Source of the DNA: an uncultured Verrucomicrobiales bacterium
GTDB taxonomy: Bacteria; Verrucomicrobiota; Verrucomicrobiia; Verrucomicrobiales; Akkermansiaceae
Length of the DNA stretch: 64,000 nucleotides
NCBI GenBank assembly: GCA_937928735.1
Contig: CALFVF010000014.1
Location: 1 to 64,000 of the forward strand
Reading direction: 5' to 3'
Shown: positions 21,692-57,993 of the stretch, one piece after another
Layout of the letters: the number at the start of each line of letters is the position of its first letter
Numbering within the stretch: the stretch's first letter is position 1
The notes under the pieces: generated by a model
What the model saw: only the letters and a program-made list of their open reading frames with translations
The model's database searches: none
What the model was told of the DNA's origin: nothing
Program-made: the position numbers and the translations under genes

Positions 21692-22343
21692 AGTAGTTGT
21701 TTGCGGGTTTTAGTGTAGTTGGGAAATTACGGATGTGAGTTATTAGGGTTATTGTGTGTGTCTCTCTCTCAAAATTAACTTGTTCATAAAAGTATGAGAA
21801 TAAGTCATCTTACAAGGTTCCTAAGGAAAATGCTAAGAGAAACTACAAATTAGCTATACGCCTTTGTTGATTTTCATCTTTCAAGGTGTCGTACTAATTT
21901 TTGTGAAACTAACCGTTAGCGCGATGATGTCCAGATGTTTTTTGTAAAACATTTTCTTGTAACTGACTTAAACAGAATAGAAGAGGGAGTTTTGTAGTTT
22001 GCTAAAAAGTGTTTGATTAACGCACAGAGTTGAGCAGATACACGTGAATTAAGTGAAAGCAATACTATTTTTATTCTAGAAGAAATTGATTCTCACTCAT
22101 GTTACATGGAAAAAGTAATATCGATTATTTCCTTAAATTATGATTAGAGCATGTGCCTTTGGTGCGACATCACTGTTATTCTCTAGGGCATCTCTGGAAA
22201 CCTGTTTTTGGTAAAAAATGCCGTTAGATTGTTTCAGATCAAGGCAAACACAATCACTTTTGAGTTGGTATAAGGATTGTGGACAACGCAGAGATGGAGC
22301 AATCTGGTCGTATTTTTAGAAACGAGGTTTTTAGAGGTGCCCT
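21692..22343. other. Long AT-rich intergenic region containing MITE copy A
   Basis: This 652-bp region has no supported gene. Its right-hand quarter (22185-22343) is a small inverted-repeat element (listed separately). The remainder (21692-22184) is AT-rich and should hold the promoter of the AP2-like gene. No RNA gene could be recognised by eye. Confidence 0.5.
22185..22343 (-). mobile_element. MITE copy A (159 bp, non-autonomous, 19-bp terminal inverted repeats)
   Basis: The ends are AGGGCATCTCTGGAAACCT (22185-22203) and the complement of AGGGCACCTCTAAAAACCT (22325-22343), 16 of 19 positions identical. The reverse complement aligns end to end with 57694-57855, including a central GATTGTGTTTGCCTTGATCT block and TTTCTAAAAATAC near one end. 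The direct dinucleotide CT flanks both ends (22183-22184 and 22344-22345), a possible target duplication. There is no coding capacity. The right end abuts the stop codon of the MidA-family gene. A weak hairpin with a T run (GCC-TT...GGC-ATTTTTT read on the minus strand, 22245-22213) could end that gene's transcript. Confidence 0.85.
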
Positions 22344-23585
22344 CTAATGTGAAGAATGCGAATGAGAGCATTCTAGCAGTGACTGAAGCTCATCCTGATC
22401 ATGATTAGAATATGTGGCTACTTCAAGAATAAAGAAGCGTGAGCCTAGCATGGTGGGGTGGGTGAGTGTTTGAAATTGGCGGATGGCTTGCCCTTGTTCT
22501 TGTGTGGTGAGTGTTTCGAGTTTGGCTAACCAAGGTTTAGCGTGCTTTGTGAGATATCTGCTTTGTTGCGTGAAGTCTAAGAGCTGATAGCGCGCATGAC
22601 AAAATGCCTTGGCTAATTGTGTGAAGTCAACATGGGCTGTGATATCTTGATCACCAATATGAATGAGAGGGTCTTCTCCCGCGGTGTGCTGGAAGTAAGT
22701 GCGTAGTGTTCCGTTGACCCTGCTAGGGTGGTAGTAGGCAGATGCTGTGTAGCCATAATCTATGGTGATAATGACTCCCTCGATGAGCCGGCTGGTAAGT
22801 TGTGAAGCCCACTCTGTGAGTCCTGGCCTGTATTCAGTGGTGTAGCCTATTGGGAAATTATTTGGAGAATGTTTGTTGAGATCCTGAGTGAATTCAAGGA
22901 GCTCGGAATTAGTGATGTCTTTATGATCCCAGTGAAAAAGATTTGCATTATCTGTAGGTTTTGAGTGTGAGCAAACGACTTTTTGCTGCCAGCCTGCTGA
23001 GGTAAACTCTAGGAGCTGAACGGGAAAGGCGTCAATGAGCTCATTGGAGAGGACGATGCCCCGAAAGGGACTCACTTCTTGTAGTGTTCGGTATTGCTGG
23101 AGTTTCTTGGAATGTTGCTTGGTGGTGGCACGCTGCCGGGCTCTGAGAGGTTCTAAGGGCTCGACTATGTGGTAGAGGCATCTTTCGTAGAATTCAGGAA
23201 AAATTGTGTTTAGTTCATCTAAAATATCATTGGCCAAGTGAGCGGTGTTGGCACCCATTTCTAAAATACCAAATGACTCTGGACAACATTGTCTCTGCCA
23301 TTCTTCGTGAATTCTGTGCGCCAAGATAGAACCGAAGGCTGAGCCCACACTCACGGAGGTGAAAAAGTCACCTTGCTTACCCACCTTTGAGCTCCCCTTC
23401 GTGTAGTAGCCGTGGTGTGGATCATACAAAGCGCTCTGCATGAATTGAGAAAAAGGAATTGGGCCGTGTTTCTCTATCTCATTGAGTATGACTTCTTCTA
23501 AAGGAAGTGTTGCGTCATGGGTGGTTCGTGGGTATGACTGAGAATCGCCATCGCGAGGATCCTCATCTGATGTTATAGAAGTCAT
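22344..23585 (-). CDS. MidA/NDUFAF7-family SAM-dependent methyltransferase
   Basis: The protein has 413 aa from the ATG at 23585-23583. After about 32 polar residues it matches the family start: ILNEIEKHGPIPFSQFMQSALYDPHHGYYTKG. Then come DFFTSVSVGSAFGSILAHRI, the SAM-binding ILEMGANTAHLANDIL (typical ExGxGxG-like loop, with GAN here), GIVLSNELIDAFPVQLLEF and GVIITIDYGYTASAYYHPSRVNGTLRTYFQH (read in parts). In mitochondria NDUFAF7 methylates a complex I subunit arginine; bacterial substrates are unknown. The start codon overlaps, on the opposite strand, the start codon of the penicillin-binding protein gene (CATG, 23583-23586). The frame stays open upstream to 23846 antisense to that gene, so a longer product cannot be excluded. 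The stop TAG touches a MITE. Confidence 0.85.
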   Translation of the reverse strand: MTSITSDEDPRDGDSQSYPRTTHDATLPLEEVILNEIEKHGPIPFSQFMQSALYDPHHGYYTKGSSKVGKQGDFFTSVSVGSAFGSILAHRIHEEWQRQCCPESFGILEMGANTAHLANDILDELNTIFPEFYERCLYHIVEPLEPLRARQRATTKQHSKKLQQYRTLQEVSPFRGIVLSNELIDAFPVQLLEFTSAGWQQKVVCSHSKPTDNANLFHWDHKDITNSELLEFTQDLNKHSPNNFPIGYTTEYRPGLTEWASQLTSRLIEGVIITIDYGYTASAYYHPSRVNGTLRTYFQHTAGEDPLIHIGDQDITAHVDFTQLAKAFCHARYQLLDFTQQSRYLTKHAKPWLAKLETLTTQEQGQAIRQFQTLTHPTMLGSRFFILEVATYSNHDQDELQSLLECSHSHSSH

Positions 23586-26019
23586 GTTTCGGCGCAAATT
23601 TAAGTCCAAGAGAAAGATACGCAAGAAGTCAATTTTGCTGCGTCGTTGGTTTCTTGTCTCTCTGATATTCTGCGGCTGTATTGGACTGTTGTGCTTGTTT
23701 TTGGCGTGGCGTTTTACCGAGAAGCACAGAGAGCGGGCCAAAGAGTACGATCTGACACGAATTAATGACATTGAACTACCTAGCCTTATTTTGGATCGAA
23801 AAGGCTTCGAGGTCGGGCGCATGTTTGTGGAAAACCGCCATGTCATTAGTATTGAGGAAATCCCCCAGAAAATGGTGGATGCACTTGTGGCTGGTGAGGA
23901 TAGCCGATTCTATGACCATGATGGGGTCGACTATATAGGGGTGGCACGTGCCTTCTATTTGAATTTTAAAGCAGGTCGCCAAACTCAGGGAGCGAGTACC
24001 GTGACTCAGCAGCTGGCTCGAAATGCCTTCCCACTCCGTGAAAAGGCACTAGAACTGGGGGAGAGTGGCTATGATCGCAAGATCGTAGAGGCTTTCCTAG
24101 CAAGACGCATTGAGCAGCATTATTCGAAGCACGAGATCTTAGAGTTTTACCTAAATCGCGTGCCTTTTGGCTCTGGTTATTATGGAGTGCGCTCCGCAGC
24201 ATTGGGGTATTTTGGAAAAGAACCCAAGGACTTAGACACCCAGGAGTGTGCTTCACTGGTCGGGTGCATTAAGAACCCTTCGACATTTTCCCCATTAGCT
24301 AGTTTAGAAAATAACAAGAAAGCGCGAGATCACGTGCTAAACCGCATGAGAATTGAGCACATCATTAGCTCAGTGGAATGCGAGCGTCTAAAGGCTCTCC
24401 CTGTCGAGGTGAGTCCAGAGCCGATTCGCCGTGGCACCTCTCACTTTTATGATAAAGTGGCTAACTTTGTAAAAGATAAGGTCGACTCAGAAGTACTTAG
24501 CCGTGGTGATCTGCGTATTTTTACAACAGTGGATCAAAGAGCTCAGAGTGCACTAGAACAAGGTTTGCAGAGCCAGCTCAGCCAAATCGAGAGCCGAGAA
24601 GACTACGCCCACCCGAAGTACTCACAGTACCAAGCTAGTGAGGGCGAGAGGCCGAATTATCTGCAAGGGGCCGCGATGATGATAGACCACACCAATGGAG
24701 AAGTGTTAGGCTATGTCGGAGGGCGTGATTTCTCACACTCTCAGTACGACTTCATACAGAGTGGTAAGCGCCCACTGGGGACAGCATTCTTCCCCTTCGT
24801 CTATGCTTCAGCCATTGAGAATGGCGTGAGTCTCGGTGCTCCACAGATTGATGAGGCGATGGATAACAGAGCAGTGATGGTGGATGGAGTCGAGGGTGTA
24901 CTCGGAGAATGGGGGGCAGAAATTATGCAGCCGAAGTACGAGGGAGTGGTGACCACGCGCCGTGCCTTCGCAGGCTCTAAGGTAGCGGCAACGGTGCGCT
25001 TAGCGAGGCAGCTAGGGCTAGAGAAAGTCAGTGAGACCGCAGTGCGAATGGGAGTGAAGCGCCCCTCGGAGAAATTACTGCCTCGATTTATTGTCGGAGC
25101 AGAAGATGCCTCCCTCAAGGACATGGTGCTGAGCTATTCTGCATTTAGTAATCAAGGTAAGATGCAGAAGGATCTCGTCTGGGTGACGCGAATTGAGCGC
25201 GGTGACGGCACACTCGTCTATCAGCATAGTGGAAAGACATCTCCTGCCAATGTACTCCACGAAACCACAGCGTATCTCATGAACTCACTCATGCGCTCTG
25301 CTCTCAAAGAGGGAACTGGGCAGCGCGTTATCAAGGACTCAGAACTCGCAAGTGACGAGACTCTAGGTGGCTATAATGGCACGACATTTAATTTTAGTAA
25401 TCACTGGTATGTTGGCTCAAATCACCGCATCACCTGTGGTGTCTGGGCGGGATTCTGGGATGGTAATGAGCCCATCTATTCTGCGGCATTTAGTAGCGAC
25501 ACAGTACAGCCCGTTTGGCTCGATGCCATGGAACAAGTCTCAGACCTATACAAAGCAGAAACAAGGACAGCTCCCGAAGCTATCGAAGAAGTGAGAATAT
25601 GCCGCCACTCAGGGAAGAGAGAAACCCCAGACTGCCAGCACTACACTGTAAATAAAGTCACAGGAGAGGAAGTGTACACAAAAACAGGCTATCAGGAGCT
25701 ATTTGTCAAAGGGCTTGCCCCGAGGGAGTTTTGTCCGATCCATGGCTCAGGAGGTATAGTGGACGAGTCTGTTTTTGCCTCCAGTGGTGGATTGATTGGT
25801 GCGCGGGCGAGATCCGTGGCCTCCGTGCAGCCCGCTCGGCCAACGCTTGTTGGTCAAGACCCCTACAATGCCTACAAGCCTGCTTTTGTGAAACGCCAGG
25901 CCAGACCCGAGGCAGCAGAACGTGGTATCGGAGCGATCAATGTCGATCAGCTAGATGAGGTCGACGAAAGTGTACAGATCCGCCTCGAACTCCCCACGAG
26001 AGTGGAGATATTTGACTAA
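23584..26019 (+). CDS. Class A penicillin-binding protein (PBP1A-like) with degraded transpeptidase motifs
   Basis: This 811-aa protein has a very basic N-terminus, a membrane anchor at about residues 23-43 and a GT51 peptidoglycan glycosyltransferase domain at about 60-270. The GT51 motifs are intact: AGEDSRFYDHDGVD (catalytic Glu105), QGASTVTQQLARN, DRKIVEAFLARRIE and LEFYLNRVPFGSGYYGV. The region aligned to the transpeptidase (about 355-660) keeps the framework (VLGYVGGRDFSHSQYDF, WYVG..HRITCGVWAGF). However, SxxK reads T400-A-F-F403, SxN reads S465-K-V467, and KTG reads Y597-N-G599. So it should polymerise glycan strands in the periplasm but not crosslink or bind penicillin covalently. 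The C-terminal 100 residues are a Pro/Arg-rich tail. Confidence 0.9.
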   Translation: MFRRKFKSKRKIRKKSILLRRWFLVSLIFCGCIGLLCLFLAWRFTEKHRERAKEYDLTRINDIELPSLILDRKGFEVGRMFVENRHVISIEEIPQKMVDALVAGEDSRFYDHDGVDYIGVARAFYLNFKAGRQTQGASTVTQQLARNAFPLREKALELGESGYDRKIVEAFLARRIEQHYSKHEILEFYLNRVPFGSGYYGVRSAALGYFGKEPKDLDTQECASLVGCIKNPSTFSPLASLENNKKARDHVLNRMRIEHIISSVECERLKALPVEVSPEPIRRGTSHFYDKVANFVKDKVDSEVLSRGDLRIFTTVDQRAQSALEQGLQSQLSQIESREDYAHPKYSQYQASEGERPNYLQGAAMMIDHTNGEVLGYVGGRDFSHSQYDFIQSGKRPLGTAFFPFVYASAIENGVSLGAPQIDEAMDNRAVMVDGVEGVLGEWGAEIMQPKYEGVVTTRRAFAGSKVAATVRLARQLGLEKVSETAVRMGVKRPSEKLLPRFIVGAEDASLKDMVLSYSAFSNQGKMQKDLVWVTRIERGDGTLVYQHSGKTSPANVLHETTAYLMNSLMRSALKEGTGQRVIKDSELASDETLGGYNGTTFNFSNHWYVGSNHRITCGVWAGFWDGNEPIYSAAFSSDTVQPVWLDAMEQVSDLYKAETRTAPEAIEEVRICRHSGKRETPDCQHYTVNKVTGEEVYTKTGYQELFVKGLAPREFCPIHGSGGIVDESVFASSGGLIGARARSVASVQPARPTLVGQDPYNAYKPAFVKRQARPEAAERGIGAINVDQLDEVDESVQIRLELPTRVEIFD

Positions 26020-57499: not shown

Positions 57500-57993
57500 G
57501 ATTCGTTATTATTTAGACTAGGCTCAAGTACCCACTCTACGAGAGAGTGATAAAAATGAGGCTTGAGGAGGTAAACAGAATCTCTAGGGATCACAACGAA
57601 AAAAACATCTGTTCTACTTGCTGGAAGAATTCACATGCTCCCGCAGAGGGGGGAGGTGTTTTTTCATAAAACTTTTGTTTGTTTTCGGATTTAAGGACAC
57701 CTCCGGTAACCTCATTTCTAAAAATACCACCGATTTTCTTCATCTCTGTGTAGTCCACAATTTTTATGAATCCATTCAAAAAAGATTGTGTTTGCCTTGA
57801 TCTGAAAAAAATCTGAAGGCATTTTTTATCGAAAGCAGGTTACCGGAGGTGCCCTTATAGCAGAGATTCTCGTTTTTTAGGCTGTGCTGTTTTCTGATTC
57901 ATTAGCGTGAGAAGCATTTCACGAATGTCTTTGTACCTGTTGTATTCTGTGAGTCTGACTTGCTTTCCTAGCGGAAGTCGTCAGTAGTTTCTC
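57500..57993. other. Divergent intergenic region with MITE copy B
   Basis: In these 494 bp no gene is supported. The region lies between the divergent MFS and inositol-monophosphatase-family genes, so both promoters should be here. The middle third (57694-57855) is a small inverted-repeat element (listed separately). The 140 bp before 57994 are AT-rich with no motif that could be assigned. Confidence 0.5.
57694..57855 (+). mobile_element. MITE copy B (162 bp, non-autonomous, 19-bp terminal inverted repeats)
   Basis: The ends are AGGACACCTCCGGTAACCT (57694-57712) and the complement of AGGGCACCTCCGGTAACCT (57837-57855), differing at one position. The body aligns end to end with the reverse complement of 22185-22343 (about four-fifths identical by eye), including TTTCTAAAAATAC, TCATCTCTG and GATTGTGTTTGCCTTGATCT. 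The dinucleotide TA flanks both ends (57692-57693 and 57856-57857). Inside, GCCTT (57794-57798), AAGGC (57816-57820) and the T run 57822-57827 form a terminator-like hairpin pointing toward the gene at 57994. There is no coding capacity. Confidence 0.88.

Follow-up and report, generated by a model that had tools for sequence, protein, structure and literature searches.

ERIC, Correia/NEMIS and RUP are palindromic repeats with ends like those of miniature inverted-repeat transposable elements (MITEs), and RUP and Correia are associated with TA duplications. Their sequences differ from that of the family described here. RUP and NEMIS are themselves named as MITEs in the accessible text of PMC3733652. 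Judged from the parts of the literature available, the nearest published relative of the present family is MITEPsy1 of Pseudomonas syringae pv. phaseolicola, a 100-nt element with 6 copies in strain 1448A that has been seen to transpose (PMC3189936, partial text). Its 18-nt inverted repeats have ends nearly identical to those of ISPsy2, a member of the IS5 family, and its insertion duplicates 4 nt at CTAG or YTAA (same text of PMC3189936). The present family shares with MITEPsy1, as described in that text, its non-autonomous nature, the IS5-type ends, the class of transposase and the 4-nt duplication. It differs in its sequence, its length of 157–160 bp, its occurrence at at least 41 places in one genome and in several genera, and its long hairpin.

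MITEAba12 of Acinetobacter resembles the family in its nearly fixed length, its presence in many species and its link to an insertion sequence (IS) through ends and duplication length; it differs in having a 9-bp duplication without sequence trend, a length of 111–114 bp and a parent, ISAba12, with other ends (accessible text of PMC6382973). MITECca01 of Cardinium is likewise an abundant MITE tied to a recognised IS, there about 240 bp long, and differs in its parent, which belongs to the IS982 family and is present alongside it as intact copies (same genome; PMC9769881, text available in part). No paper describing an element of this kind came to light in the openly accessible portion of the literature on Verrucomicrobia, and a word search of the available text of a 2024 review of prokaryotic MITEs found no occurrence of “Verrucomicrob-” (PMC10969869).

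The two repeats considered here lie in a window of 64,000 nucleotides, the whole stretch of DNA analysed, which belongs to an assembly of 2.65 Mb in 40 contigs that is 93.9% complete (the own genome, G000). It is highly probable that they are copies of a non-autonomous DNA transposon of the IS5 kind, in other words a MITE, and the family is a new one of a known kind in Verrucomicrobiales. It offers a system in which to ask whether the siting at stop codons is due to the target motif or to the survival of those copies, and for what reason a long hairpin is retained by a transposon.

Borders, ends and target duplication

The reverse complement of positions 22185–22343 aligns end to end with 57694–57855. 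In a search of the own genome the two copies are 80% identical over their whole length (E = 1.3e-33), which bears out the preliminary description of two related full-length copies. That account also held that neither copy has an open frame, and the longest stop-free stretches, 43 codons in copy 1 and 48 in copy 2, are indeed too short for a transposase. Frames started by ATG reach just 33 and 34 codons, so that the window copies have no space for a transposase gene. The lengths first given, 159 and 162 bp, stand as two copies of about 160 bp but overshoot either border by one base, because the outermost A/T belongs to the target duplication; the true lengths are 157 and 160 bp (Table 1). The 19-bp terminal inverted repeats are confirmed as inverted ends and shortened, the best repeat being the outer ~18 bases, with a palindrome that extends further inwards. 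The border is seen most plainly at locus L002, where TAAC stands on both sides of GG...CC. The family has the features that define a MITE: it is short and without a transposase gene, it has terminal inverted repeats, and it occurs as many dispersed copies with target duplications.

Table 1. Coordinates of the two element copies, their ends, flanking duplications and the adjoining gene in the window.
Feature	Position	Strand	Remark
MITE copy 1, 157 bp	22186..22342	-	80% identical to copy 2; scores 159.9 bits with model R1, for whose construction copy 1 was among the copies used
MITE copy 2, 160 bp	57695..57854	+	98–99% identical to three other own-genome copies
Left terminal inverted repeat of copy 2, GGACACCTCCGGTAACCT	57695..57712	+	end type as in IS5 elements
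Right terminal inverted repeat of copy 2, GGGCACCTCCGGTAACCT read inwards	57837..57854	-	end type as in IS5 elements
Left target duplication TCTA of copy 1	22182..22185	.	exact 4-bp direct repeat with 22343–22346
Right target duplication TCTA of copy 1	22343..22346	.	the adjoining gene has its TAG stop at 22344–22346 (minus strand)
Left target duplication TTAA of copy 2	57691..57694	.	differs at one base from the right-hand TTAT
Right target duplication TTAT of copy 2	57855..57858	.	one mismatch to TTAA on the left
Gene of Methyltransf_28 protein	22344..23846	-	stop codon within the target duplication of copy 1

Flanks were tabulated for 85 elements, whole or fragmentary, of the own genome and of relatives, with omission of four copies cut by contig ends (L010, L013, L015, L016). 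Rows without GG..CC ends, 21 in number, were excluded from the count of duplications, and two of them (L039 and L152) also carry an exact repeat. Among the 64 clean-ended copies, 37 have an exact 4-bp flanking repeat and 27 do not; in 500 shuffles, with partners dealt at random, the count averaged 8.8 and never exceeded 17. For other lengths, the same copies show an abutting exact repeat of 2 bp in 2 cases, of 3 bp in 1, of 5 bp in 2 and of 6 bp in none. The first base of the exact duplication is T in 37 of 37, and the words are TTAA (15), TAAA (9), TAGA (5), TATA and TTGA (2 each), and TTTA, TAAC, TGAA and TCAA (1 each), so the target duplication is mostly T[T/A][A/G]A. The direct dinucleotides CT and TA that had been described as flanking the copies were not borne out, as the duplication is of 4 bp, TCTA/TCTA at copy 1 and TTAA/TTAT at copy 2. 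A 2-bp duplication of any sequence was considered and dropped on the evidence of L002 and the flank table.

That the commonest flank is TTAA (15 of the 37 exact duplications) would suit a MITE of another class with a TA duplication, namely IS630/Tc1-mariner, but the duplication is 4 bp long and includes TAGA, TAAA, TTGA, TCAA, TGAA and TAAC, and the examined elements with matching ends carry IS5 transposases. Membership of that class is very improbable.

Copies, spread and an unoccupied site

Further copies, for which the preliminary description had proposed a search of the genome and its relatives, were found in both. Copy 2 matches the own genome 48 times at E ≤ 0.001. Reduced by hand for 4 reverse-strand self-matches of palindromic copies and 3 second pieces, these matches correspond to at least 41 places, full-length and partial, which is a lower bound as 40 of 54 first-look candidates were scored. 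Contigs C18, C20, C23 and C26 begin or end within a copy, and the family thereby explains four contig ends of the assembly. The near-identity of copy 2 to three other copies (Table 1) speaks for recent spread in the own genome, and by this measure copy 2 is probably young.

The usual length is near 160 bp, with 59 of the 85 tabulated copies at 157–162 bp. Shorter forms with similar ends also occur, several of 72–77 bp and some of 112–124 bp. Forms of 74–76 bp with the same kind of ends lie at L056:605-682, L066:2131-2206 and L155:508-585, the first two with exact 4-bp duplications, and are perhaps a second size class of MITE.

A nucleotide search of the same-genus genomes gave a match in 0 of 11. 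Model R1 detected a diverged subfamily in one of them, G004, and a search with a G004 copy gave at least 19 places in that genome. In a sample of the order, the family is present at E ≤ 0.01 in 14 of 386 genomes, counting the own genome, although G068, G114, G222 and G342 reach just E 0.001–0.01; G012 has 6 copies that cover most or all of the length. Within the order the element is not confined to one family (it occurs in f1, and in f2 through locus L078), by either age or transfer. A sample of the phylum (387 genomes, 198 genera), which contained none of the other order-sample carriers that score at E ≤ 0.001, gave one genome at that threshold, the own genome. A pattern scan of genome contigs returned 6 stretches, of which 4 belong to the family: one from Roseibacillus and three from a single MAG, one of the three being an isolated end. 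The stretches from Corynebacterium and Methanolobus showed no further resemblance by eye. The 20-base end pattern had no match in viral contigs, and copy 2 had none in phage and plasmid records. At L148 and L149 (G291, contigs C104 and C111, 217–378) the left-adjoining bases are shared and the right differ, perhaps through recombination between copies or through a repeat that carries the element.

Empty sites in relatives had been proposed as a second check, and one was found at a single locus, away from both window copies. In G004, copy L087 sits between tsaD and an OmpA-domain gene. In G008, G006 and G009, of the same genus, these two genes adjoin without the element, their matched parts lying 21, 43 and 55 bases apart, respectively. 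This site is not base-exact, as the spacers differ between species. For window copy 2, a search with 2.15 kb in 12 genus genomes gave no empty site; its flanking genes lie apart in all five other genus genomes that match both (G002, G004, G005, G006, G009), some of these matches being short. The neighbour gene of window copy 1 has homologs in 12 of 12 genus genomes, own included, and inspection by eye gave no empty site there, the 60 bases past the neighbour's stop looking different in 11 relatives.

IS5-family elements with matching ends

Mobilisation is very likely the work of a DDE transposase of the IS5 family, an assignment drawn from IS5 elements of related genomes that share the MITE ends. 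The DDE transposase that the preliminary description supposed to act unseen can thus be given a family name on the basis of shared ends, and the full IS with the same ends that it proposed to look for exists in relatives, with remnants only in the own genome. A pattern search for MITE ends in nine carriers led to a 1.31-kb element of G291 (contig 118, bases 4–1315), whose matching ends enclose an unbroken frame of 357 residues. NCBIfam NF033581 identifies this frame as a transposase of the IS5 family (258.9 bits, cut-off 140), and it contains DDE_Tnp_1 and DUF772 domains; no solved structure matches it by sequence. By NF033581 the transposases of L094/L114 and of L116 (G343) are IS5, and at L116 both ends are present. 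Of 260 family genomes, 34 contain relatives of the transposase at E ≤ 1e-10. Such an enzyme would bind the GGRCACCTCYGG.. ends, excise or copy the element, and join it to 4-bp staggered cuts.

In a scan of 34 IS loci, ends that depart from the degenerate consensus by no more than one mismatch were counted at 14 distinct places, with a chance expectation, by our own arithmetic, below 0.1 in the 192,224 bases scanned. Five of the 34 loci have no end at ≤3 mismatches, including L118 and L119 with nearly complete genes. Two IS ends in same-genus G001 (L206, L222) read GGGCACTTCTGGAAACC and agree at all of 17 bases with MITE ends in the own genome, for example C1:9944-9961. A TNNA word adjoins 6 of the 14 good ends. 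In G009, L205 is an internally deleted IS of 807 bp between ends that have 2 and 3 mismatches, and TAAA borders it left and right. The flanks of L120 are unequal (TTCA and TTTT), L114 is cut by its contig end, and the 34 loci held no intact IS with equal 4-bp flanks on both sides.

Three of the four G004 MITEs in A3 start with GGGAACYTCTGG, as do IS ends in G009 and G288. Other MITEs start with GGGCACC.., as do IS ends in G291, G343 and G362. It is only suggestive, from this likeness of sequence, that MITE end variants follow IS subgroups, and the types are not clean: G288 also holds the other type (L117), and the MITEs of G283 are mixed. In genome G009 the IS5 transposase gives 15 matches (pieces) and the MITE none; G004, with its at least 19 MITE places, has no transposase match at E ≤ 1e-10. 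More distant IS5 elements, L124 and L125 in g3 genomes, have ends like GGCACCTCTAAAAAC and adjoin repeats such as GATTTACGA; these elements may target a repeat.

An intact transposase of the IS5 kind was not found in the own genome, which gave 2 matches, both remnant-like. The first, on C26, is a transposase fragment that contains 6 stops and lies close to a matching end; it is possibly a fossil of the supplier. At G000:C26:37759-38809 (L110:1760-2809) the decayed IS5-type fragment adjoins a remnant of an IS3-type transposase. The second match is a 530-aa frame on C27 with a weak match to the IS5 model. The supplier in this genome has probably been lost, has decayed or is missing from the assembly, whose 93.9% completeness and four contigs ending inside copies mean that its absence is not proven.

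Stop codons and the hairpin

At nine of 45 hand-chosen loci with readable flanks (21 of the 41 own-genome places and 24 from other genomes), a gene stop codon lies within the four bases bordering the element, with ORFs called mechanically. Control words of the same kinds, intergenic or stop-holding and drawn from the locus flanks, contain a stop in 53 of 1223 cases (4.3%; binomial P = 1.2e-4). A cruder control from the window alone counts 29 stop-bearing vs 452 intergenic target words (29 of 481, 6.0%). A copy inside a gene can create a false gene end at the duplication; seven of the nine stop-bordering genes look complete (window copy 1, L044, L045, L017, L034, L084, L093), and the remaining two have a weak match (L002) or no family (L075). 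The bordering four bases are unmatched across the element in L045 and L084, and three of the four match in L093. The protein encoded beside window copy 1, which is presumably MidA-like, shows no visible C-terminal truncation, as its matches to 11 same-genus homologs reach residues 476–498 of 500. Since the target motif overlaps stop codons, an insertion might duplicate the stop and spare the gene. The enrichment reflects either targeting or survival, between which the genomes cannot tell.

The fold of copy 2 spans the whole element and has 61 symmetric pairs (z −8.3 as RNA, −6.5 as DNA). Copy 1 folds less well, with 30 of 48 pairs symmetric and a z of −6.0 (−4.35 as DNA). At least 40 symmetric pairs are present in 32 of 40 copies from 12 genomes, copy 1 being among the eight below, and for seven copies the z of the fold does not go below −2 (L051, L020, L022, L146, L151, L092, L080). 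The consensus fold of the 40 divergent copies comprises the outer 13 pairs only; the full hairpin is visible in single copies and in a closer set, A2, of 18 copies from two genomes aligned without structure.

Being short, palindromic and often intergenic, the family could recall REP/REPIN-type palindromes moved by a RAYT (Y1) transposase, and REPs of the GTAG kind have been reported from O. terrae, a verrucomicrobium (accessible text of PMC3733652). The same partial text gives REPs as 20–40 bp and tagged at one end by GTAG or CGTC, whereas the elements here are 157–160 bp long with GGRCACC ends. A repeat of ~160 bp with a target duplication and ends common to DDE elements leaves the REP reading with next to no credence.

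The repeats could also now be kept mainly as functional RNA or DNA hairpins, at mRNA 3' ends or as regulators, with transposition as their origin only. The end-to-end fold of 32 of the 40 copies in 12 genomes is in keeping with such a role, yet it is lost in the diverged L020, L022, L051, L146 and L092 (z −0.8 to −1.8) and partial in copy 1. The paired changes between G000 and G012 and the enrichment at stop codons point the same way as the fold; against them stand the absence of the element from one conserved place in sister species, the lack of any Rfam family matching either copy, and the lack of a terminator-like or promoter-like pattern within copy 2. On balance such a role is improbable, and the repeats are read as a MITE.

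Applied to A2, the fold of copy 2 pairs 85.3% of cells. Cells changed on both sides number 65, vs 26.9 in shuffles and at most 17 with partners slid. The values for cells paired, both-side cells and covariation score were each reached by 0 of 500 shuffles. Two of the five measures are weak: both-side changed pairs number 19 vs a mean of 15.2 (reached by 14 of 500 shuffles), and further pair types 45 vs 42.7 (88 of 500). Much of the covariation in A2 rests on one split, G000 vs G012. Across subfamilies, too, the picture of paired change is mixed. Many copies would form one long hairpin whose arms may have changed together in some subfamilies, with selection on the hairpin or arm-to-arm copying as possible causes.

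A bolder form of the MITE explanation, unlikely but deserving mention, makes the element a “safe-landing” hairpin parasite, in which docking at T[TA][AG]A rebuilds stop codons and the hairpin is actively kept symmetrical across genera. Such an element could multiply in gene-dense genomes without breaking genes. Its symmetry would arise from recopying of one arm (template switching, snap-back strand) or from a need for the hairpin in mobility or mRNA-end protection. The odds of this reading are lowered by the 72 ordered comparisons among nine subfamily representatives, as changed pairs stay paired above slid controls in 30 and not in 42 (one tie counted as not; two shares with different denominators). 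Between certain subfamilies, changes on both sides exceed one-sided ones, as from G332 to G012 (11 vs 0).
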